This document shows, one piece after another, positions 1-13,419 of a stretch of 21,702 nucleotides of DNA. A program made the translations under genes and the position numbers. The first letter of the stretch is position 1. Every line of letters starts with the position of its first letter. The notes beneath the pieces were generated by a model. The model saw nothing but the letters and a program-made list of their open reading frames with translations, had not been told where the DNA came from and ran no database searches. This DNA is from a virus. The stretch is taken from IMG/VR virus record IMGVR_UViG_3300048919_000568, positions 1 through 21,702 of that record. One strand, written 5' to 3'.

Positions 1-1035
1 TCACTTGGTCGGGGTGACTTTTTTGCCGATCCTCTTCCGGATGTAATTCTCCGTCATCACCACGGTAGTGTGCCCGAGCTGATCCTTGGCCTGCATGATG
101 TCGCCGCTTGATTCCGCTTTGTCGGTGCCGGCCTTGGCGCGAAGATCTCGCATTTGGAAATCCCCTTTTTCAACTCCAGCGGCCTCGCGCGCCGCGTCAA
201 ATCGCCCCCGCAACATGCTGCTGGTCATCGGCTGGCCGTTGTCCATCACAATCAGCCTACTGGTACGGATCCTGTGTCCCGCCTTCCGGGCTAGGATTCG
301 ATCAATCACCACCTTGAGCTCTCCGACAATCTCAATCCTTCTCTTTGCTCGCGTTTTGCCCTGCTGGACCGCGAGACGGTCGTCACGGATATCCTTTTCG
401 TCCATTTTCAACGTGTCGGCGATGCGCTGGCCGGTCAGGTAGAACAGATCAAGCGCGTCTTTTAGTGGCTGATCAGCATGCTTGTAGACCGCTGCAAACA
501 TCTCATCTTCGATATAGGCATCCCGACCGGTCTCTTTGTGGCCCTTTACGCCTGCGCACGGATTCGCCAGCGAGGTATAGCCACTTGTCCTGGCGAAGTT
601 CCATATTGCGCTCAGCAGCGCCTTTTCTCTGTTCGCCCTGATTGGCGCTTCTTTTCCACGCTTCCTGAGGTATTGGACGATGTGTTGCGGCTCGATCGCT
701 TCGAGGGGCGCAGGTGGATCATCAAAAAACTTCAGTAGCTGCTTCAGCTCGCGGACGTTATCTCTCTGCGTGGCCGGCGCCTTCGTTGGAACCACTTCCT
801 CCATGTAGATGTTGGCGACGTAGGCGAAGGTCAGCACGGTCTGAACTATTGCCGACGATGCGCGGCTCTTCTCCAGCTTGGCATACTCAACGATCGCCAT
901 TCCGTAATCGCTGCCCAGCGGGATTTCTTTTCGCGGAGTGCCGCCGGTGTCGTAGTAGTAATAAACAGTGCCACTGCGCTGTGTGCGCTTGCGTAGACGC
1001 GTGACACTGTCAGGCTTCGTTGGCTTTCTTCCCAT
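1..1035 (-). CDS. int: Phage tyrosine integrase
   Basis: A 344-residue tyrosine site-specific recombinase that would integrate and excise the phage at attP/attB. An N-terminal arm and SAM-like core-binding region (about 65-150) precede the catalytic domain (about 170-335). Visible catalytic residues are Arg204 (TGQR), Lys227 (QQGKTRAKR), Arg299 in the box RDLR, His322 (LGHTT) and the nucleophile Tyr331 (ENYIRKR). The usual HxxR histidine is arginine (Arg296), a substitution I recall in other phage integrases of this type. The TGA stop is the first triplet of the window, so the gene is complete. Its ATG directly abuts the TAA of the upstream DUF4224 gene, so the two are probably co-transcribed. 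attP would be expected just left of base 1. Family assignment is firm; activity is inferred. Confidence 0.95.
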   Translation of the reverse strand: MGRKPTKPDSVTRLRKRTQRSGTVYYYYDTGGTPRKEIPLGSDYGMAIVEYAKLEKSRASSAIVQTVLTFAYVANIYMEEVVPTKAPATQRDNVRELKQLLKFFDDPPAPLEAIEPQHIVQYLRKRGKEAPIRANREKALLSAIWNFARTSGYTSLANPCAGVKGHKETGRDAYIEDEMFAAVYKHADQPLKDALDLFYLTGQRIADTLKMDEKDIRDDRLAVQQGKTRAKRRIEIVGELKVVIDRILARKAGHRIRTSRLIVMDNGQPMTSSMLRGRFDAAREAAGVEKGDFQMRDLRAKAGTDKAESSGDIMQAKDQLGHTTVVMTENYIRKRIGKKVTPTK

Positions 1036-1338: not shown

Positions 1339-2064
1339 TTAGATGGCCATCTCGGCCTGGGTTTCTCGTTGCCAGATCGGCGAACTGTTGTGCGATTCGA
1401 TGCGGTCGGCGATGACGTTGGCGCGCTGGCCGGCGGTCGGCGGGGCATACATGCCGAAGCGACTGATGCTCCCACCGTTCACTGCTGCGTTCGTGGAGTC
1501 GGCGGAGGCGAAGGGCAGGTGCTGGAATATCGCAGGGTCGAGCATTCGCAGGCCGTGAAGTCTGCAGGCTGGACGGCCTTGGTCATCGCAGATAGCATCC
1601 ATCGCGACGCCCATCCGCTTCCACCATGCTCCAGTGCCCGGCGCAGCCCATTGCCCAGAACTGCCGAGGGCCACCGTTCGCCAACACCTCGCAAGCCGCT
1701 GCAGTCGCTCAAGCGACTCGTGCAAGTGCCAGACTGGCACCCCGCGAAGTTCCTCTGGCCACTGCCGAACAAGGTCGTCGTTGGCCTCTTCGTCGCCATC
1801 AATGACGTCCGGAATGAGCGCCCAGGTGAATCCAGGGTGTCGGTGCCAGTCTTCGACCCAGCGTGTGTAGCCGTCGACATCTACCTGTCCACCTTTCTTC
1901 CAGACTGTGAATGCGCCGTTATCGAAAACAAATGATTTGCACACATCGGCGACAATCCCGAGATCGTCCTTGCGTGGGAACGGTACCAACGCGTGCCGGC
2001 CGGCCAGGAACTTAGCGGCGTCCTCGCGCTTACCGCCGATAGGTGTGCCGTGGTAATGGATCAT
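1339..2064 (-). CDS. TGT/DpdA-like transglycosylase-fold protein (putative DNA deazaguanine insertion)
   Basis: A 241-residue protein whose motif order resembles the tRNA-guanine transglycosylase TIM barrel and its phage DNA-modifying relatives (DpdA). It has FDNGAF (about 48-53, compare DSGGFQ of TGT), ALIPDVID (about 82-89), VPVWHLHES (about 109-117), VALGSSG, HGLRMLDP and ASADSTNAA (the last compares with the TGT nucleophile-Asp region). DpdA proteins exchange guanine for a 7-deazaguanine base in DNA. No deazaguanine synthesis genes are seen here, so the base would have to come from the host queuosine pathway. The ATG at 2064 overlaps the upstream TGA (ATGA), so it is translationally coupled to the chain of small genes before it. 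Family assignment is from recalled motif patterns; substrate and activity are inference. It could be a TGT-fold protein with another role. Confidence 0.55.
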   Translation of the reverse strand: MIHYHGTPIGGKREDAAKFLAGRHALVPFPRKDDLGIVADVCKSFVFDNGAFTVWKKGGQVDVDGYTRWVEDWHRHPGFTWALIPDVIDGDEEANDDLVRQWPEELRGVPVWHLHESLERLQRLARCWRTVALGSSGQWAAPGTGAWWKRMGVAMDAICDDQGRPACRLHGLRMLDPAIFQHLPFASADSTNAAVNGGSISRFGMYAPPTAGQRANVIADRIESHNSSPIWQRETQAEMAI

Positions 2065-2969: not shown

Positions 2970-3340
2970 GGATTCACCTTCTCGAAGTAGAAGACCACCG
3001 GCGCGCCAGTCTCGGCGATCAGTCCGTAGGACTTGGCCAAGCGGTAAATGGGGTGGTAGTTGTTCAGGCTGTTGACGTGGCCGGCGATCCAATCGCGCCA
3101 AGCTTCCAACGGCATCGCGTGCTTGCTCAGGTTGCAGGGGATGCAAGCGGGCATCATGTTGGCGAGGTTGTGGTTCTCCGGTTTGAGCGCGGGCACCAGC
3201 TTCGCCTCCTTGCCCCAGTTTCGCTGGACGGCTTCGAGGTGATCGGCGTGCCACTTCTCACCCAGCAGCACACCGCAGTAGGCGCAGTGCCCGCCGTATT
3301 TCAGGCGCACTTGCTCGCGCTCAGCTTTCTTCAGGCGCAT
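2966..3340 (-). CDS. HNH endonuclease
   Basis: A 124-residue protein with a compact HNH (beta-beta-alpha metal) nuclease domain. A CAYC knuckle (Cys19, Cys22) is followed by the HADH motif (His31-His34), then the N-x-N-L-A-N segment at about 56-61 and a second zinc pair in ACIPCN (Cys66, Cys69). The four cysteines would form the structural zinc site around the catalytic histidine and metal. Many such genes in early phage arms are nicking or homing-type nucleases or recombination accessories; which applies is not visible. AAGGAT lies before ATG 3340. It heads the ATGA-coupled run that ends with the DpdA-like gene. Confidence 0.85.
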   Translation of the reverse strand: MRLKKAEREQVRLKYGGHCAYCGVLLGEKWHADHLEAVQRNWGKEAKLVPALKPENHNLANMMPACIPCNLSKHAMPLEAWRDWIAGHVNSLNNYHPIYRLAKSYGLIAETGAPVVFYFEKVNP

Positions 3341-3350
3341 AGGTATCCTT

Positions 3351-3364
3351 GCCGCTATAGCGGC
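3351..3364. promoter_or_regulatory. 14-bp perfect palindrome upstream of HNH gene
   Basis: GCCGCTATAGCGGC reads the same on both strands. It lies about ten bases before the HNH ATG, just upstream of its Shine-Dalgarno sequence, where a dimeric repressor could block expression or an RNA hairpin could form. No second copy was noticed, so its function is unproven. Confidence 0.35.
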
Positions 3365-3385
3365 TGACTTTGAAGGGGGAGGGAG

Positions 3386-3565
3386 TTACGGGTAGTTGGT
3401 GCTGATGCGCTGGGCGATTTCTTCGAGCTCACCGGCAATTTCAAACATTTGGTTGTTGTCGCGCCGGGACACAACGGGGGAGCGCTGCACGTTGCGGCCG
3501 CTCAGGATCTTGGCGGCCAGCCGGATCAGCCAGGCTTCAAACTTGCGGCGGACGAAGCGCTTCAT
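3386..3565 (-). CDS. Hypothetical basic 59-residue protein
   Basis: Begins MKRFVRRKFEAWLIRLAAKIL: a strongly basic, amphipathic N-terminal helix, then an acidic C-terminal helix (EIAGELEEIAQRI). AAGGAG lies at good spacing before ATG 3565, which overlaps the TGA of the 199-residue gene as ATGA; the frame extending upstream lies within that gene and is a shadow. Not recognised. It could bind nucleic acid or membrane, but nothing shows which. Confidence 0.7.
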   Translation of the reverse strand: MKRFVRRKFEAWLIRLAAKILSGRNVQRSPVVSRRDNNQMFEIAGELEEIAQRISTNYP

Positions 3566-4161
3566 GCTGCGCGCTCCTTCTGGTAAAAGTCCCACGCGGC
3601 CTTGTCGCCCTGGGCCACGTACCAACTCAGGGTGCCGTCGCCGTCGTGATCACTCACCGACCCGCCATACCGAGAGCCAGGGAACTGGAACTTGGCCGAC
3701 ATAGAAATCCGTGGCCACCCGATGCTCCACTCGGTAATGGTCAGATCAGGTCGCTCTGCCAGTACCTTTGCCTTAAAGGCTTCGCCCTTGGCGTTCGCGT
3801 CGGAGATCTCCTTGTCCCGCGCATCTTTGCAGCTCTGATCGCAGTAAGCGTGCCGGCCGTCGTAGACGATGGCGAGCGGATTGCCTTCGTCGTCTTCCTC
3901 GTCCTCGTAGAGCTGGTTCTCGCAGTTGTTGCAGTACATCCACCAGCCCTGCTCGTGGTAAGCCTTGGCCGGGATGAAAGGTTGGCCAGCGAACTGATCG
4001 GCCCACGGCGCGCGGCGGCAGAACTCCACCTCTTCGAAGGTCAGATTCAACTCGTTGCCGCCCTCGCGGCGCGCCGTAGCGCTGTTGGTGGCGAACGTGA
4101 TCACGTGTTCACCTTCAGAGCCTTCACCGACGTGATAGGCCTTCATCTTTTCTGTGGGCAT
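3562..4161 (-). CDS. Hypothetical protein with paired Cys motifs
   Basis: An unrecognised 199-residue protein. CNNC (Cys77, Cys80) and CDQSC (Cys107, Cys111) enclose an acidic loop (YEDEEDDEG), which looks like a treble-clef or zinc-ribbon module. The C-terminal part is rich in aromatic residues and strands (SMSAKFQFPGSRYGGS, TLSWYVAQGDKAAWDFY). AGGAC lies before ATG 4161. It is the first leftward gene after the rightward AbiC-like gene, so leftward transcription here must start in the 4162-4260 gap or read through from further right. Function unknown. Confidence 0.75.
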   Translation of the reverse strand: MPTEKMKAYHVGEGSEGEHVITFATNSATARREGGNELNLTFEEVEFCRRAPWADQFAGQPFIPAKAYHEQGWWMYCNNCENQLYEDEEDDEGNPLAIVYDGRHAYCDQSCKDARDKEISDANAKGEAFKAKVLAERPDLTITEWSIGWPRISMSAKFQFPGSRYGGSVSDHDGDGTLSWYVAQGDKAAWDFYQKERAA

Positions 4162-4260
4162 GGGGCGTCCTATGCCGGGGCATGCCCGGGCGGTGGATTA
4201 CGTTGTGGTCAGGTCACGCTTAACTAAAGTAGAGTCAGAAAAAAAGCCTGGAGCGGTAAA
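4162..4260. other. Divergent intergenic region with imperfect GC palindrome
   Basis: About 100 bases between divergent starts. Around 4174-4191 lies a near-palindrome centred on GGGCATGCCC, which is perfect over ten bases and has one mismatched pair further out. A weak rightward promoter candidate is TTGTGG (4203-4208), a 16-base spacer, then TAAAGT (4225-4230), followed by GGAG before the ATG at 4261. No convincing leftward sigma70 promoter was found. Confidence 0.4.
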
Positions 4261-4965
4261 ATGACTGAAACCAAAAAATCTGTTGAGAACCAGGAGACTT
4301 TTACTAATTCGTCAAAGAAGAGATATGTTTTAATCGACGCATTTTCAGCGTGTTTAGTTGGTGCGGTATTTGTTTCAGTATGCTTGTCTATTTATTTTTA
4401 TCGAAAGTCATTTGGCGGCGAGCTCTCAGTAAAACCAGAAGAGTGGTCAGCATTCGGAACATATGTTGGTGGCTTGTTTAGTCCCCTGATTTCATTTCTC
4501 ACACTTTTGGCGATATTAAAAACGATAAGTCTTCAAAGGGAGTTGCTAGATACGCAGCGAACTGAATTCTCAGCAATGGAGCGACTTCAAGCGAAGACGC
4601 TTGCTTCGCAGCTATCCCAAATCGAACGTTCTGATGCGGACGCGGATAGACGGCTGATTGAAGAGTCCCGTTTGAATATACTGAAAACTCTGGATAACTA
4701 TTCATCAGCGTTACACAAGGAGTATGAAACCAAGCAAAGAGGGTATGAGATGCTATTAGACTGGGCAATGAAAGGGCATGGTAATCCCTCCAGAGAACAA
4801 ATTACTCAGTTGCGCGGTAAGCTTGATGATTATGAAGCTCGTTTGGCAAAATTAACTGTTCTGTATGGCGATTTATGTTTCGATGACTTCACTGATATCG
4901 CTTCGCTCAAAGTGGCTTATCAAGTTGGGATGGAAGAGATATGTCATGATTGGAATAAAGGTTAG
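4261..4965 (+). CDS. AbiC-like two-helix membrane protein (putative phage exclusion)
   Basis: A 234-residue protein with two predicted membrane helices (about 24-47 and 66-88), followed by a long charged helical or coiled-coil cytoplasmic part starting at LQRELLDTQRTEF. The segment EEWSAFGTYVGGLFSPLISFLTLLAILKT resembles the N-terminus I associate with putative AbiC-type abortive-infection proteins. These are widespread in prophages but poorly characterised. The gene is visibly A+T-rich: bases 4321-4380 are 22/60 G+C, against 41/60 at 12841-12900. It is also oriented against the surrounding early genes, as expected for a recently acquired moron. GGAG lies seven bases before ATG. Membrane topology is clear; the Abi role is inference. 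Confidence 0.6.
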   Translation: MTETKKSVENQETFTNSSKKRYVLIDAFSACLVGAVFVSVCLSIYFYRKSFGGELSVKPEEWSAFGTYVGGLFSPLISFLTLLAILKTISLQRELLDTQRTEFSAMERLQAKTLASQLSQIERSDADADRRLIEESRLNILKTLDNYSSALHKEYETKQRGYEMLLDWAMKGHGNPSREQITQLRGKLDDYEARLAKLTVLYGDLCFDDFTDIASLKVAYQVGMEEICHDWNKG

Positions 4966-5051
4966 AGCCTGCGCCTATGATCATTGCCGTCGTGAAATAG
5001 TGATCCTCGCCGGCTGGCGTGATTCGTAGAAGTGGGGTATTTGTGTTCGGC

Positions 5052-5066
5052 CCGGCATGGAGCCGG
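5052..5066 (+). promoter_or_regulatory. Small hairpin just before HEPN gene ribosome binding site
   Basis: CCGGC and GCCGG arms around the loop ATGGA lie directly before AAAGGAG and the GTG start at 5079. It could modulate initiation or be chance. Confidence 0.25.
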
Positions 5067-5078
5067 AAAGGAGAAGCA

Positions 5079-5588
5079 GTGAGTACCAGACGAGTTTTCG
5101 ATTACGCCCATAAAATGACTGAAGCGATGGTTGTGCTGCGCGATGCAGGTCACACTGTTCCAGCGCTGATGCTTACCTATGCCGCGATTGATCAGATGGC
5201 ATGGTTGTCTGCTCCTCAGGAGAGGACAACGAACGCTGACTTCAAAAGATGGGTTAGCACTTACATGCTCGCTAATAACCCGATGGCAGTGACAGTTGAA
5301 GAGCTTTGGGAGGCTCGCAACGGACTACTGCATACTGGCACTGCTGAGTCGTCCGCTAACCAGCGGGACACCACCATTCGCAAGGTTTTCTATACGGTCG
5401 GGGGTGTTCAAAACACCGTCAATAACGACCCGACAGTAGTCTTCGTGAATGCTGGTGATTTTTTCGGCCGATTTCTAAACGGTGTCATGTGGTTCATGAG
5501 CGCCTTGGAGTCTGATGCTCCGATGATGGCCAATGCGCTTGCGAAACTGGACCGCATGTTAATCGAGCAGGGGCTATCTGAGACTTAA
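5079..5588 (+). CDS. HEPN-domain protein (putative RNase, defence-related)
   Basis: A 169-residue helical protein carrying WEARNGLLHTG: Arg80-Asn81-x-x-x-His85, matching the Rx4-6H active-site motif of HEPN ribonucleases with the common Asn after Arg. The preceding helices (ALMLTYAAIDQMAWL, FKRWVSTYML) fit the HEPN four-helix bundle. HEPN proteins are typical RNase effectors of toxin-antitoxin, Abi and other defence systems. The GTG start at 5079 was chosen because AAAGGAG precedes it at correct spacing; the in-frame ATG at 5019 has no such site. It lies 113 bases after the AbiC-like gene on the same strand. Its TAA overlaps the stop of the convergent gene within TTAA. No antitoxin is obvious unless the membrane protein takes part. 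RNase activity is inference. Confidence 0.6.
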   Translation: MSTRRVFDYAHKMTEAMVVLRDAGHTVPALMLTYAAIDQMAWLSAPQERTTNADFKRWVSTYMLANNPMAVTVEELWEARNGLLHTGTAESSANQRDTTIRKVFYTVGGVQNTVNNDPTVVFVNAGDFFGRFLNGVMWFMSALESDAPMMANALAKLDRMLIEQGLSET

Positions 5589-5953
5589 TTTGACGACGGC
5601 TTCTCGACTACGTCCTCAGGTTCTGGCGGATCGTCAGCGAGCGACTTCCTTCCGGCCGCTTCGATCAGTCGCGACACCTTTTCAGTAACAACAAAAGGTG
5701 TCGTGACACACTTGAGCATCTTGGCCTGGGTTTCGAAGTCGGCCGCGATCAGGTTCCGTAGCAGGTTCTGATACACCTCCTGTTGGTTGTTGAAGCCGTG
5801 GGCGGCCATGACCCGCTTGAGGTCGGGCTTGAAAACCCCGGCGACTTCAACCGTAAACTTCTCTACGCCCAACGCAGCGTCCTTTGCTGCCGCCTTCTCG
5901 CGCTTTTTCTTCTGCTTGATCGCTTCCTTCGTCGGCTCCTGTACTTCGGCCAT
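5585..5953 (-). CDS. Hypothetical protein, possible ribbon-helix-helix DNA binder
   Basis: A 122-residue protein. A Lys/Ala-rich N-terminal helix (about 8-28) is followed by KFTVEVAGVFKPDLKRVMAA and the helix QQEVYQNLLRNLIAADFE. This strand-helix-helix order suggests a ribbon-helix-helix fold, though I cannot confirm it. The C-terminus is acidic and proline-rich. AGAGGT precedes the ATG at 5953. Its stop overlaps that of the HEPN gene on the other strand. Probably a small phage early regulator; function unknown. Confidence 0.7.
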   Translation of the reverse strand: MAEVQEPTKEAIKQKKKREKAAAKDAALGVEKFTVEVAGVFKPDLKRVMAAHGFNNQQEVYQNLLRNLIAADFETQAKMLKCVTTPFVVTEKVSRLIEAAGRKSLADDPPEPEDVVEKPSSN

Positions 5954-6349: not shown

Positions 6350-6621
6350 TGCTCACCCCCTGCTGGCCGGTTGGCCTTTTCTTCGAACTGAATCGCCATG
6401 TCGAGCGCTCCTTTGTAGGTCCAGCGAAACGCCTTGGTCTTGCCGGTGGACAGGTCCACAACATGGAAGGCCTTGCCGACCGTCTTCACCTGGAAGCGCA
6501 CCTTTTTCTCCGGCATCACCAGGTCGGCGAGGCGGGCGAACGTCTCGCGCGCTGCCTGGGTGCGAATCATCAGTACGCGCAGAACATCGACGCGCTGTTG
6601 CATCAGTGGGTGCATTTGCAT
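6346..6621 (-). CDS. Hypothetical 91-residue phage protein
   Basis: Begins MQMHPLMQQRVDVLRVLMI. An N-terminal helical half is followed by a strand-rich half (KKVRFQVKTVGKAFHVVDLSTGKTKAFRW) and a final helix. The longer frame from 6687 is rejected because GAGGGATC precedes the ATG at 6621 and the extra residues are Arg-rich. It is coupled to the HTH gene by a GTGA overlap. The 5' leader contains a long hairpin (6655-6711). Function unknown. Confidence 0.7.
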   Translation of the reverse strand: MQMHPLMQQRVDVLRVLMIRTQAARETFARLADLVMPEKKVRFQVKTVGKAFHVVDLSTGKTKAFRWTYKGALDMAIQFEEKANRPAGGEQ

Positions 6622-6654
6622 GGCTGATCCCTCGGTGGTGGGGTTGCGTGTATT

Positions 6655-6711
6655 CGTCAGCACTCTGCGCCGCCTGCTGGTTGCCATTGGGCGCAGAGGA
6701 GAGTGCTGACG
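6655..6711 (-). ncRNA. Long hairpin in the leader of the 6621 gene
   Basis: CGTCAGCACTCT at 6655-6666 is a perfect 12-base inverted match to AGAGTGCTGACG at 6700-6711. Inside it, GCGC at 6667-6670 can pair with GCGC at 6691-6694, or an alternative CTCTGCGC/GCGCAGAG pairing (6663-6670 with 6691-6698) can form. The two alternatives share bases, so a switch is conceivable. There is no T tract, so it is not a standard terminator. It ends 34 bases before the start codon of the leftward gene. Confidence 0.45.
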
Positions 6712-6730
6712 GATAAAGGCGGGGCGAAAA

Positions 6731-6754
6731 AAAGCCCGGGTTACCCCGGGCTTT
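6731..6754 (-). terminator. Rho-independent terminator, leftward
   Basis: A perfect ten-base stem, AAAGCCCGGG with CCCGGGCTTT around TTAC. Read leftward it is followed by a run of seven T. It would stop leftward transcripts before the 6621 gene. Confidence 0.85.
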
Positions 6755-6969
6755 CGTCCTCAAGTAGACCTCCCTACGTTGAGGGGGAGTTGCCTCCCGA
6801 AGGAGGGCTTTGATTGTCGTTTACATGGCTGCCAATCCTCCGTGCTGAGTTGATCTACCCAGAATTCCTCGGTAGTTGGTTGTGGTGCAGGTGTCCGGCA
6901 TCTGCTGCACAGGTGTTGCACCGAGTGTTACGCTTAATGCTCTACCAAGACGCACAACAGAGGACGTGT

Positions 6970-7149
6970 ATGAGTCAGGAAAGCAGTGGAACAGTTGAGT
7001 CCATCGATAAAGCTCGGGCTGCGGCGAACAAACTCGCACTTCATGGCGAATCGAAGGATGTAAAGGAAGCGGCGGCGGCGATTTTCTCGCTGTGCAACGT
7101 CGTAACCGTACTTTTGGGACGAATCGAAAACCTAGAATCCAAGAAGTAA
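6970..7149 (+). CDS. Hypothetical 59-residue protein, isolated rightward gene
   Basis: Begins MSQESSGTVESIDKARAAANKLALHG; predicted almost wholly helical, with a more hydrophobic C-terminal part (AAAAIFSLCNVVTVLLGRIENLESKK) that could form an amphipathic or coiled-coil dimer helix. AGAGGA precedes the ATG at 6970, whereas the upstream extension to TTG 6814 has no good site. It is a single rightward gene within the leftward arm, with terminators on both sides, as seen for moron cassettes. Function not recognised. Confidence 0.65.
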   Translation: MSQESSGTVESIDKARAAANKLALHGESKDVKEAAAAIFSLCNVVTVLLGRIENLESKK

Positions 7150-7161
7150 CTCGTTAAATTG

Positions 7162-7186
7162 CCGAGACCCAATCTTCGGGTCTCGG
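7162..7186. terminator. Terminator between convergent genes
   Basis: A nine-base perfect stem, CCGAGACCC/GGGTCTCGG with loop AATCTTC, flanked by AATT-type bases on both sides. It sits between the stops of the rightward 59-residue gene and the leftward LuxR-type gene. The T tracts are short, so efficiency is uncertain. Confidence 0.7.
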
Positions 7187-7194
7187 TAATTGCG

Positions 7195-7578
7195 TCAGGC
7201 ATACAGCTCAGGTTGTTCGGCGCGGCGCACCATTCGAACTTGCGCTGTTCTGCGCTCCGGCACGCGGCGATCTCGGCGCATGGCGTCATCCCCAATCATT
7301 GAGTGCATCGCGATGAGCGCCGCGAGAGCGATGCACATCGGCGAAATGATCTGGCGGCGTATTGCTTCGGCGACCATAGCGGTCTGGCGGTGAACTCCAA
7401 GCTTGAACATCGCGTTAGAAAGCCGCTTAACCACAGTGCCCGGCTCAACATTGAACACCCGGGCAATCTCTTTCGCTGTCATGCCTTGAGCAGCAGAAAG
7501 CACGAACTGAAGCTCGCGCGGTGCAAGGCCGCGACCGAGATAGCCCTTCCATGCACCGCTAACGATTTCCGATTCCAT
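7195..7578 (-). CDS. LuxR-type HTH protein, first gene of the PL operon
   Basis: A 127-residue protein. Residues about 16-75 are a LuxR/GerE DNA-binding domain: LAPRELQFVLSAAQGMTAKEIARVFNVEP, then TVVKRLSNAMFKLGVHRQTAMV. No sensor domain is present. A hydrophobic stretch follows (ISPMCIALAALIAMHSMI, about 76-93), then a very basic tail (MRRDRRVPERR), so membrane association is possible. ATG 7578 (GGGAG upstream) is preferred; ATG 7629 would add 17 residues and cannot be excluded, while ATG 7680 lacks a ribosome site. It is the first gene downstream of PL and its operators, the position of lambda N, which suggests an early regulatory role. That role is inference. Confidence 0.75.
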   Translation of the reverse strand: MESEIVSGAWKGYLGRGLAPRELQFVLSAAQGMTAKEIARVFNVEPGTVVKRLSNAMFKLGVHRQTAMVAEAIRRQIISPMCIALAALIAMHSMIGDDAMRRDRRVPERRTAQVRMVRRAEQPELYA

Positions 7579-7825
7579 TTGTTGTGACTCCCGGTTGTTT
7601 TCCCAATGCGCCCGGGTAACCAGGCGCATCAGTGAAACTTTCCGTGTCCCTTCGGCGCTGCTGGCGCGGTACGGGCTCATTCAAGTTGTTCGTCCGACCG
7701 CGACTCTGTCCGCCGGATAACTGTTTCTGGTGATTTACGCTGCACACCCGGGTCAGTTGCCAACCCTCTGAACCGTTAAGGCCGATTCATCGCTGCCTGG
7801 CCGGTTGTTATCCGGCGATGGGCAA
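7579..7825 (-). other. Long untranslated leader of the PL transcript
   Basis: About 240 bases between the predicted PL start and the LuxR-type gene, with no supported gene. It contains an 11-base inverted repeat, CGCCGGATAAC at 7711-7721 and GTTATCCGGCG at 7807-7817, which could fold the leader into a long stem or serve as paired binding sites. A local CCGG-CCGG hairpin overlaps the right arm. Confidence 0.45.
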
Positions 7826-7854
7826 AATATAGGGCAGCCTTTATTTTGAGTCAA
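7826..7854 (-). promoter_or_regulatory. PL-like early leftward sigma70 promoter
   Basis: On the minus strand: TTGACT (7854-7849), a 17-base spacer, then TATATT (7831-7826), close to consensus in both boxes. One operator lies in the spacer and touches the -10; another abuts the -35 from upstream. It would drive the LuxR-type gene and the leftward arm. Confidence 0.8.
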
Positions 7855-7867
7855 CAGGTATGCCTTT
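7829..7867. promoter_or_regulatory. OL-like repressor operators (two sites)
   Basis: Two 14-bp sites of the pattern AAAGG-N4-CCTTT, each with one mismatch: ATAGG-GCAG-CCTTT at 7829-7842 and ACAGG-TATG-CCTTT at 7854-7867. Their centres are 25 bases apart, and both overlap or abut PL. They match the sites between cI and cro, so CI and Cro probably control PL as well. Confidence 0.7.
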
Positions 7868-7888
7868 ATTTTTTCTTTTGGGCAAAAA

Positions 7889-7911
7889 AAATCCCGCGAC
7901 TTGCGGGATTT
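7889..7911 (-). terminator. Terminator of the repressor gene
   Basis: A nine-base stem, AAATCCCGC/GCGGGATTT around GACTT, followed leftward by a run of T. It lies about 20 bases after the cI stop and separates cI transcription from PL. Confidence 0.85.
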
Positions 7912-7930
7912 CTAACAGGTGGTGGCTGAT

Positions 7931-8647
7931 TTACCAGAGCGCGGAAGACCAGAACACACGGCCTAGAACAGCGATTTCCTTCTCGAGCATCTCTTGCGGC
8001 GTGTACTCTTCGTCTGGGTGCTCGTCGCGGTTGAAGCTCCGCATACGGATACCGCCGCCAGGTATTCGATACAGAGTCTTCACTCGGAGCTGGCCGCCGT
8101 GATCCAGGGCATACATCTTCCCGTCTGTGATGGTGGTAGTGCCCCGATCCACGCCGACAGTGCTTCCATCAGGAAGCACGGGTTCCATACTGTTGCCAGA
8201 AACCGTCACGCAGACGGCCTCAGATGGCTGTACACCCTGACGGCGAAGAGTCATTTTTCCGAACCGCAGCTTCTGCCTTGGCGATTCGTGAACTGCCGTA
8301 CTTCCAGCACCTGCGGACAACTCAACTTCCTTGAGAAACGGCACATAGACCTCGTCATCATCCAGCGGGGTCTCATCGTCCCATACATCGAAAGAGCCGA
8401 TTAACACGGCGTTTGATTCGACTGTAGAAGGGCGCTGATTGCCTTCCGGCGAACCAGTACCTTCTGAAAGCCATACGGGGTCTACGCCGCATATCTGAGC
8501 CAGCTTTATCAGGTGTCCAGACGTGCGAGTAAGCCCTCGCTCTATCTCCGAGACGGACGCCTGTTTTATGCCTGCGCGATCAGCGAGTTCAACCTGGGTG
8601 AGCCCAGCGCCTTTTCGTGCTTGTTTCAATCTGTCTTTGAGTTCCAT
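7931..8647 (-). CDS. cI: CI-like phage repressor (HTH plus S24 peptidase)
   Basis: A 238-residue lysogeny repressor. Residues 4-62 are an Xre/lambda-type HTH (LTQVELADRAGIKQASVSEIERG); residues about 100-230 are an S24/LexA-type self-cleavage domain. Ser153 (SGNSMEP) and Lys190 (LRVKTLYR) form the Ser/Lys dyad, and the Ala-Gly pairs in LSAGAGS (about 112-115) are the likely RecA-stimulated cleavage site, so induction by DNA damage is expected. The start at 8647 was chosen because the HTH begins at once and upstream sequence holds the operators. There is no good Shine-Dalgarno sequence, but the predicted PRM start lies only a few bases upstream, suggesting a nearly leaderless message as for lambda cI from PRM. 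Confidence 0.93.
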   Translation of the reverse strand: MELKDRLKQARKGAGLTQVELADRAGIKQASVSEIERGLTRTSGHLIKLAQICGVDPVWLSEGTGSPEGNQRPSTVESNAVLIGSFDVWDDETPLDDDEVYVPFLKEVELSAGAGSTAVHESPRQKLRFGKMTLRRQGVQPSEAVCVTVSGNSMEPVLPDGSTVGVDRGTTTITDGKMYALDHGGQLRVKTLYRIPGGGIRMRSFNRDEHPDEEYTPQEMLEKEIAVLGRVFWSSALW

Positions 8648-11774: not shown

Positions 11775-12142
11775 TCGACATGACGCTGCCGTGGCCGCCA
11801 AAGGAATTGAGTCCTAACGCGCGCGTGCACTGGCGGCAAAAACACAAACACGCGAAGGCGTATCGCCGCACCTGCGGCCTGATCGCGTTGGCGCTGGATG
11901 CACCGCGCCTCAGCGGCAAAAAGTACTTCTGGGTCACGTTCTGCCCGCCGAATCGCCGTTCCTACGACGATGACAACCTGGTGGCGCGCTTCAAGGCCGG
12001 CCGGGACGGCATTGCCGATGGCCTGGGCATTGATGACAAGAACTTCGTCACCACGATCAACATCGGCAAGCCGGTACCGGGCGGCGCGGTGCGTGTGCAT
12101 ATCCGGGATTACCCGATCGACCCGGAGCCAAACACGCCATGA
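11771..12142 (+). CDS. rusA: RusA-type Holliday junction resolvase
   Basis: A 123-residue RusA-family endonuclease that cuts Holliday junctions as a dimer. The N-terminus MIDMTLPWPPKELSPNARVHWR is typical. The acidic active site is visible in RRSYDDDNLVARFKAGRDGIADGLGIDDKNF, with Asp66-68 and Asp88-89 and the conserved Asn69-Leu70. The start at 11771 overlaps the YbcO-like stop; the frame extending upstream to 11390 is a shadow of other genes. The end overlaps the recombinase ATG. It probably acts on branched replication and recombination intermediates before packaging. Confidence 0.92.
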   Translation: MIDMTLPWPPKELSPNARVHWRQKHKHAKAYRRTCGLIALALDAPRLSGKKYFWVTFCPPNRRSYDDDNLVARFKAGRDGIADGLGIDDKNFVTTINIGKPVPGGAVRVHIRDYPIDPEPNTP

Positions 12143-13419
12143 GCCAGAGCTTGCTGACCACGTTTTCTGATGCCGAGATCCGCCGGCAATCGGCCAACGC
12201 CTCTATCCGCGACATGCGGGACGCACGGCACCCGGGCGTTTACTTCCGCTTTCACAAAAGCCGCGAGCGCGGCACCTGGTACCTGGTGGTCGGCAAGAAG
12301 TGGGAGAAGATCGCCGGTTTCCCGGAGCTGCAGGTGAAAGGGCTGATCAATGCGCTGCCGAAGATTCGCGAACGCCTGGCCGCGGACCCGAAGGCATCAG
12401 CCGCCGCCGGCACCCTGCAGACGGTCGGCCAGTTGCTCGATTGGTTCACAGCGCGCCAAGCCGTTGATCGCAGCCTTTCGGCCAAGCGCCGATCAACCAA
12501 CACTTCGATCATCGCCTGCCATCTGAAGCCGCGGCTCGGTGAGCTGCTGATGGAGGAGGTCGACCGCTTCACCCTGGACAAGCAGCTGATGTGGCCGATG
12601 CAGGCCGAGTTCTCGCTGTCTTATGTGCGGCTGATGTGGGGTGTGCTGGTGGTGGCGTTCCGGCAGGCCGAGAAGCTGCGCATGATCAGCTCCAACCCGA
12701 TCGCCGGCTTCAAGTTCACCGACTTCACCAAGGCGAAAATCCAGCCCAAGCCTTCGCGGTTGCGCGCCGTCCAGCTCGAGGATGTGATCGGGGACTTGGC
12801 CGCCAGTTTCGAGCGGTACCCGCAGGACTGCATGCTGGCGCTGATGATGCTCTGCCACGGTACGCGCGTCGGCGAAACCCGCATGGCTCGGTGGGCGCAC
12901 CTGACCTTGGGCGAGCAGGGCGAGTGGTTCATTCCGGCCGAGAACACCAAGACCCGCTGCGAGCATCGGCTACCGCTGACGCATCAGGTCTGCGCGCTGC
13001 TGGAGCGGTACCGGGACTGGCAGGCAGCCAAGGGCTACAAGGGCGCGTTCGTCTTCCCGGCGCGTGGCGGTGGGTGCCTCAGCGACAGCCAGGCGTGTGC
13101 CGTGTTCACCCGGTTGGGGCAGGGCGAGTGGACAAGCCACGACCTGCGCAAGGTGGCCCGCACCGGCTGGACTGACCTCGGCGTGGACTTCCTCATCGGC
13201 GAGATGCTGGTGAACCACACGATGACCCGCAACGTGCAGACCTACATCCACACATCCGCCGAACTGCTCAAGCGCGAAGCCCTGAGCAAGTGGCACGAAT
13301 GGTTAGACGGGAAAGGCTTCAGCCTGATCCACCGCTCGACCATGACTAGAAACGGAAATTCGCAGAATGCCGCAGAGGCCTTGAATGGCGCGGCTTCTAG
13401 CCAAATCACGAAACCATAA
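12139..13419 (+). CDS. Second tyrosine recombinase, inside the nin region
   Basis: A 426-residue integrase-family protein with the complete catalytic set: Arg243 (HGTRVGE), Lys271 (ENTKTR), His334 and Arg337 (SHDLRKVA), His360 (LVNHTM) and Tyr369 (VQTYIH). The N-terminal about 90 residues resemble an arm-binding domain; a core-binding region lies at about 95-195. The C-terminal tail (about 395-426) is Asn/Ala/Ser-rich and looks disordered. It is coupled to rusA by ATGA and so is expressed with replication genes, unlike the integrase at the left end. Its target is unknown: resolving concatemers or multimers, inverting a segment, or a second integration site are all possible. Family assignment is firm. 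Confidence 0.9.
   Translation: MSQSLLTTFSDAEIRRQSANASIRDMRDARHPGVYFRFHKSRERGTWYLVVGKKWEKIAGFPELQVKGLINALPKIRERLAADPKASAAAGTLQTVGQLLDWFTARQAVDRSLSAKRRSTNTSIIACHLKPRLGELLMEEVDRFTLDKQLMWPMQAEFSLSYVRLMWGVLVVAFRQAEKLRMISSNPIAGFKFTDFTKAKIQPKPSRLRAVQLEDVIGDLAASFERYPQDCMLALMMLCHGTRVGETRMARWAHLTLGEQGEWFIPAENTKTRCEHRLPLTHQVCALLERYRDWQAAKGYKGAFVFPARGGGCLSDSQACAVFTRLGQGEWTSHDLRKVARTGWTDLGVDFLIGEMLVNHTMTRNVQTYIHTSAELLKREALSKWHEWLDGKGFSLIHRSTMTRNGNSQNAAEALNGAASSQITKP

Follow-up and report, generated by a model that had tools for sequence, protein, structure and literature searches.

A conserved leader precedes an HEPN-like gene and many unrelated cargo genes at a candidate exchange slot of Pseudomonas temperate phages

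In a Pseudomonas prophage of the HK97-like (lambdoid) kind, two rightward genes, here called A and B, share one junction of the early operon, which runs leftward. They are probably independent single-gene cargo units, with B placed in a slot headed by a conserved leader. As far as sequence comparison can establish, this leader stands at fixed spacing before about a hundred unrelated ORF families, occurs also in empty versions, and has had its cargo replaced. That it represents a standardised expression-and-exchange slot of Pseudomonas temperate phages is a tentative proposal, to which we would give somewhat less than an even chance. Such a slot would consist of a promoter-hairpin-RBS leader at a fixed junction where ORFs are inserted, swapped and lost, acting as a gene-capture platform for anti-phage and lysogenic-conversion genes, with the leader as a finder of defence genes.

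The window, meaning the whole stretch of DNA that was analysed, is an IMG/VR virus record of 21,702 bp with HK97-like structural genes, and its best relative by coverage among sequenced phages is Pseudomonas phage PotUPM1. The ORF list places two rightward frames at 4261-4965 (+) and 5019-5588 (+), bounded by leftward ORFs at 3562-4161 (-) and 5585-5953 (-). A better start for gene B is the GTG at 5079, which lies 5 nt beyond an AAAGGAG at 5067-5073 and yields a protein of 169 aa. The features of the junction are as follows:

3562..4161, - strand: left flanking gene L, a leftward early gene of 199 aa, phrog_8514, with the N-terminus MPTEK
4148..4197, - strand: conserved 5' element of gene L, containing the palindrome CCGGGCATGCCCCGG
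4261..4965, + strand: gene A, 234 aa, a two-helix membrane module followed by a coiled coil
5079..5588, + strand: gene B, 169 aa, HEPN-like, with R80-NGLL-H85
5585..5953, - strand: right flanking gene R, leftward, phrog_5439

The G+C content is 40-44% in windows of gene A, 51-53% in gene B and mostly 57-63% in the flanks, and a re-count by eye at 4321-4380 gave the 22 G+C in 60 reported earlier for this A+T-rich segment. Both the ORF positions and these windows bear out the earlier note's description of two rightward low-G+C genes inside a leftward early arm, and the prophage context that it assumed is likewise supported.

Upstream of B lies a conserved leader that the earlier note had missed. 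Alignment of this region reveals a palindrome, CCGGCATGGNGCCGG, conserved before the Shine-Dalgarno sequence, and the leader core spans 60 bp, composed of TGGC-N19-TAT and then a CCGGC-ATGGN-GCCGG hairpin, with the Shine-Dalgarno sequence next. In the window, its elements are:

5015..5020, + strand: -35-like hexamer TGGCGT, the TGGC of which is kept in nearly all copies
5038..5043, + strand: -10-like hexamer TATTTG, a weak sigma-70 match, separated from the -35-like hexamer by 17 nt in the main leader subtypes
5052..5066, + strand: leader hairpin CCGGC-ATGGA-GCCGG, with a predicted position at the mRNA 5' end or no more than a few nt from it
5067..5073, + strand: Shine-Dalgarno sequence AAAGGAG of gene B

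The spacing from TGGC to TAT is fixed across leader subtypes that differ in other bases, and the distance from the start of the -10-like hexamer to the hairpin is 12 or 14 nt in the main subtypes. If the hexamers are a promoter, then the mRNA would begin at the hairpin or very close to it. Because the hexamers are weak sigma-70 matches, we infer the promoter role rather than observe it, and a sigma-70 promoter scan of the region at a strict threshold gave no match. Folding of the window leader, and a long fold of 4966-5090, scored no better than shuffles. The right half of the hairpin is intact in 171 of 190 loaded copies and in 18 of 22 empty ones, a difference that is not significant; only this half provides an independent test, since the left half was part of the search pattern.

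Several other identities were considered for the leader and set aside. For a known RNA family such as abiF RNA, the region upstream of the HEPN-like gene gave no Rfam match. An operator shared within the phage is contradicted by the single exact copy of the palindrome in the window, and no intrinsic terminator was found. An RsmA/CsrA site (ANGGA in the hairpin loop) was rejected as the GGA is not kept, the last loop base often being G, and T in L001 and L002. The sigma-54 promoter suggested by TGGC lacks a GC at -12, and a leftward peptide coding sequence is unlikely because the leader subtypes differ by 2 nt in spacing.

The leader precedes B in the window and in L001, L002, L040, L124, L195 and L429; its palindrome also stands before unrelated genes of further Pseudomonas prophages, and the leader occurs in hundreds of Pseudomonas phage contigs. 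A first scan of IMG/VR, for the exact palindrome with a Shine-Dalgarno sequence, listed at least 83 copies, and among these matches an ORF followed in 82 of 83, the proteins falling into 49 clusters. The second search, composed of two scans with the upstream half and left arm only and with no gene required, returned at least 222 distinct leaders. By automatic criteria, 190 of the 222 listed are followed by a Shine-Dalgarno sequence and an ORF of at least 40 aa (86%, versus 3.5% of random positions in the same DNA, from which about 8 of 222 would be expected), and a strict Shine-Dalgarno sequence follows 137 of the 222, versus 0.7% at random positions. The 190 cargo ORFs among the matches listed have a median length of 98 aa and form at least 101 clusters by BLAST at 1e-3, which may be over-split; IMG/VR is itself redundant and the ORF calls are mechanical. 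The matches listed also include 22 empty leaders, in nearly all of which the hairpin abuts the stop codon of the next leftward gene. Empty leaders are found in the cultured phages phiAH14a (L244, 5940-6005) and UFJF_PfDIW6 (L245, 6000-6065), the annotations of which make no mention of them. Beyond phage records, the leader pattern is present in 47 of 299 Pseudomonas genomes, with none for the reversed control. A class-wide sample of 274 genomes had no copy, and plasmids gave no leader at the BLAST threshold used. The strict leader occurs once in 216 of 263 loci and twice in 12.

In 126 of the 190 loaded copies listed, as on the right of gene B in the window, the cargo is followed by a convergent leftward ORF, most often with overlapping stops. 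One cluster of flank genes, to which gene R (5585-5953) belongs, numbers 76 among the matches listed, and its members adjoin 49 different cargo clusters as well as five empty leaders. The 60-bp core of the window is identical to those of L412, L402, L407, L198, L434, L352, L376, L180 and L205. In phages with this identical core, the DNA of flank R is 82-94% identical and the cargo is different; the highest value, 94%, is that between gene R and its counterpart in L412, where another cargo is present. An identical leader core and a closely similar flank around different cargo show cargo replacement at a fixed slot. Judged by these alignments, the locus has the pattern by which a moron or cargo hotspot is recognised: flanks that stay constant, a gene between them that varies, and sites where no such gene is present.

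The cargo includes relatives of defence genes, for which reason part of it is plausibly anti-phage. One is a relative of PD-T7-5 (2e-116), and the leader-headed gene at 6414-7475 (-) of L305 is closely related to this anti-phage protein. Further relatives or domains among the cargo are PDC-S31, AbiP, putAbiC, HEPN_RiboL-PSP, NarE, DUF2971 and SUKH, although most of the cargo families are without a known domain or function. The PD-T7 systems come from a selection of 21 systems, 6 of them with remote similarity to HEPN (PMC9519451).

The two membrane helices and coiled coil previously attributed to gene A are confirmed, and its AlphaFold model consists entirely of helices, including long coils (mean pLDDT 75, pTM 0.44). 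Gene A returned no Pfam, NCBIfam or PADLOC family match, and its N-terminal part matches phrog_8999 and phrog_33781, both annotated as of unknown function. In tblastn and alignments, ORF1 of P2-EC45, which lies in the P2 Z region and is putatively a lysogenic-conversion protein, matches at 32% over the N-terminal 116 aa, and common to both proteins are the two membrane helices and a W-x2-FG-x3-GG-x3-P motif. The putAbiC domain sits in P2-EC45 ORF2, directly downstream of ORF1. Single-protein scans with gene A across viral and genome contigs found no relatives, but a profile of A together with three relatives matched 68 of 399 Pseudomonas genomes. Among 45 aligned members, the common part is the membrane module with its motif, followed by a coil, and putAbiC (PF16872) is present in eight of the 45. 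Gene A shares the N-terminal two-helix module with these putAbiC-bearing relatives in the alignments and lacks the C-terminal domain; it matches neither the AbiC nor the AbiP model of PADLOC, though a few distant relatives do. Membership of the AbiC family, having neither PF16872 nor a PADLOC AbiC match behind it, is therefore rejected, and the resemblance to AbiC proposed earlier is limited to the front half of the protein, where the membrane module is held in common. By inference from this module, A would act at the membrane. In the ten best-scoring loci inspected, A-type genes are mostly lone, and many of them lie in prophage early regions close to integrases or DNA methylases. ORF1 (membrane module) and ORF2 (putAbiC) at 259-1292 of P2-EC45 (L004, AJ512679) resemble the halves of one AbiC-type protein, split in the record. 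In the L085 prophage, two A-type membrane genes, at 3770-4435 and 7579-8571 (-), flank a DNA methylase gene.

With the GTG start at 5079, the Rx4H motif of gene B reads R80-N-G-L-L-H85, in agreement with the earlier numbering. His85 is invariant and Arg80 at least 90% conserved across 20 aligned relatives, which argues that the motif is not a chance occurrence. It agrees with the R-x4-6-H signature of the HEPN superfamily, in which a polar residue comes next to the Arg. Among PHROGs, gene B matches phrog_12390 and phrog_18591 only; it has no Pfam family match, and none to an HEPN model, while its profile found chance matches only among PDB sequences. One viral model, annotated as of unknown function, gave a match at 7e-5. 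The AlphaFold model of B, built from six sequences, is mainly helical (mean pLDDT 85), and its top four PDB fold matches are all HEPN or HEPN-containing (2q00, Csx1-Crn2, 2hsb and 1wol), with a best E value of 2.0 that is not significant. Taken together, support for B as HEPN-like is good but not conclusive. The HMM search of both proteins against Abi and HEPN families suggested by the earlier note thus gave no family model match for either, whereas the AbiC-type N-terminal module and the HEPN-type Rx4H were found to be shared. Like members of the HEPN superfamily (HepT, HEPN_RiboL-PSP, and the archaeal 2q00, 2hsb and 1wol), B is a small helical protein with R-N-x3-H; it differs from them in having neither a nucleotidyltransferase partner, nor the RX4HXY tyrosine, nor a Pfam HEPN match, and in belonging to its own family, phrog_12390. 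A HepT/MntA toxin-antitoxin was rejected on the first two of these grounds, as no neighbour of B matched a nucleotidyltransferase family and His85 is followed by T-G rather than leading to a tyrosine.

In the mechanism that we propose, the leader would drive rightward transcription of its cargo in the lysogen, where the leftward early operon is under repression, and the 5'-terminal hairpin would stabilise the message or tune its translation. On infection by another phage, B would act as an HEPN ribonuclease and cleave RNA, and A would work separately as an exclusion protein at the membrane. Accessory loci are described as often expressed in lysogeny (PMC7067206).

B may alternatively not be a nuclease, but rather an HEPN-fold or unrelated helical protein that acts by binding, in an immunity, antirepressor or structural role. 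This is rather unlikely. In its favour, neither sequence nor PDB fold comparison gave a significant match to an active HEPN RNase; against it, few positions are as well conserved as R80 and H85 in the family, whose members diverge to about 20% identity. A single-gene HEPN-type ribonuclease carried as cargo in an exchangeable slot is the most likely identity of B. The earlier note instead saw A and B as one two-gene anti-phage system, a membrane sensor or effector beside an HEPN RNase. The two genes are indeed adjacent and co-directional in the window and both occur in the same junction of L429, yet the pairing is not borne out elsewhere and we regard it as very improbable. Close relatives of B (40% identity or more) are found at seven other phage or genome loci, of which only L429 also has A; L001, L002, L040, L041, L124 and L195 have B without A, in the first two at 83% identity, and the best genomic homologue of A, at 55% identity in L084, has no B, as is true of the other nearest relatives of A apart from L429. 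The order in L429 is A (72%), two other small genes, and then B (46%) behind its own leader, and this unequal divergence, with genes intervening, argues for separate histories of A and B in a shared junction. Across the loci compared, A and B are adjacent in the window only, where a gap of 113 bp separates them and B again has its own leader. The nearest further co-occurrence, in L047, places them on opposite strands, with 1.6 kb and unrelated genes separating them. Homologues thus occur largely singly with unrelated neighbours, which the earlier note had named as grounds against its pair, L429 being the exception with both genes, and a conserved A-B pair is rejected; its side remark that the genes may have arrived separately is the better reading.

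As for the leader, it might serve the leftward early operon, through RNA processing, an antitermination hairpin or a leftward promoter, with the cargo merely tolerating it. Leaders do persist in empty junctions directly after a leftward stop codon, and the 15-nt hairpin, with its 5-bp stem and 5-nt loop, has what we take to be a boxB-like geometry. The explanation is nevertheless improbable, as 86% of the listed copies are followed by a rightward Shine-Dalgarno sequence and ORF at near-fixed spacing, and the spacing of TGGC to TAT is held across subtypes whose other bases differ. The leader might otherwise be mainly a recombination target at which phage recombinases swap cargo, with transcription secondary, as would suit both the identical 60-bp cores with different cargo between closely similar flanks and the many cargo families per flank. 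This would leave the Shine-Dalgarno sequence and hairpin geometry unexplained, and we consider it quite improbable relative to a leader that expresses its cargo.

The nearest precedent is provided by the SAS/ESAS of cluster K mycobacteriophages, short conserved phage sequences that directly precede the start codons of numerous genes, unrelated to one another and mostly non-structural; the SAS is the 13-bp GGGATAGGAGCCC, is present in 11-19 copies per genome, and in about half of cases has an upstream inverted repeat (PMC3203893). The leader is not itself an SAS/ESAS, as its sequence is different from GGGATAGGAGCCC and it is mostly found once per locus. It has a promoter-like block and a 15-bp hairpin upstream of the Shine-Dalgarno sequence, occurs in Pseudomonas rather than mycobacteriophages, and has exchangeable cargo and empty sites. 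The precedent therefore differs in sequence, copy number and host. Morons and lysogenic-conversion hotspots, such as P2 Z/fun and accessory loci expressed in lysogeny (PMC7067206), are likewise extra genes that lie between phage genes, set against the surrounding transcription and variable between relatives; here, in contrast, a near-identical leader is common to about a hundred unrelated cargo families and is kept when cargo is absent. Integron cassettes carry attC at their 3' ends, whereas the conserved hairpin here lies 5' of the cargo. Text searches of the literature, with subscription literature outside their coverage, returned no report of the leader sequence or of related descriptions.

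If the leader drives its cargo, a short sequence would mark a large and mostly unstudied set of small phage genes that are likely expressed in lysogens, and would offer a neighbour-independent way to mine prophages for defence genes. The source and regulation of morons would also become testable within one phage group. For the locus itself, a plausible but wrong two-gene reading is corrected.

Other features of the window were observed in passing. The CCGGGCATGCCCCGG palindrome element (4148-4197, -) precedes leftward genes that are alike only in their MPTEN/MPTEK start; among the fetched loci, the products of these genes number 52 distinct sequences, which group into about nine clusters. A segment at 3346-3393, upstream of the leftward gene starting at 3340, is 94-100% identical over 41-48 bp in several other phages and is perhaps another shared leader. 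The record also contains two integrase-type ORFs in its 21.7 kb, one at 1-1035 (-) that reaches the left edge and one at 12139-13419 (+) upstream of the terminase and portal genes. The early gene at 1339-2064 (-) matches phrog_887, queuine tRNA-ribosyltransferase, and possibly has a role in DNA or tRNA modification.
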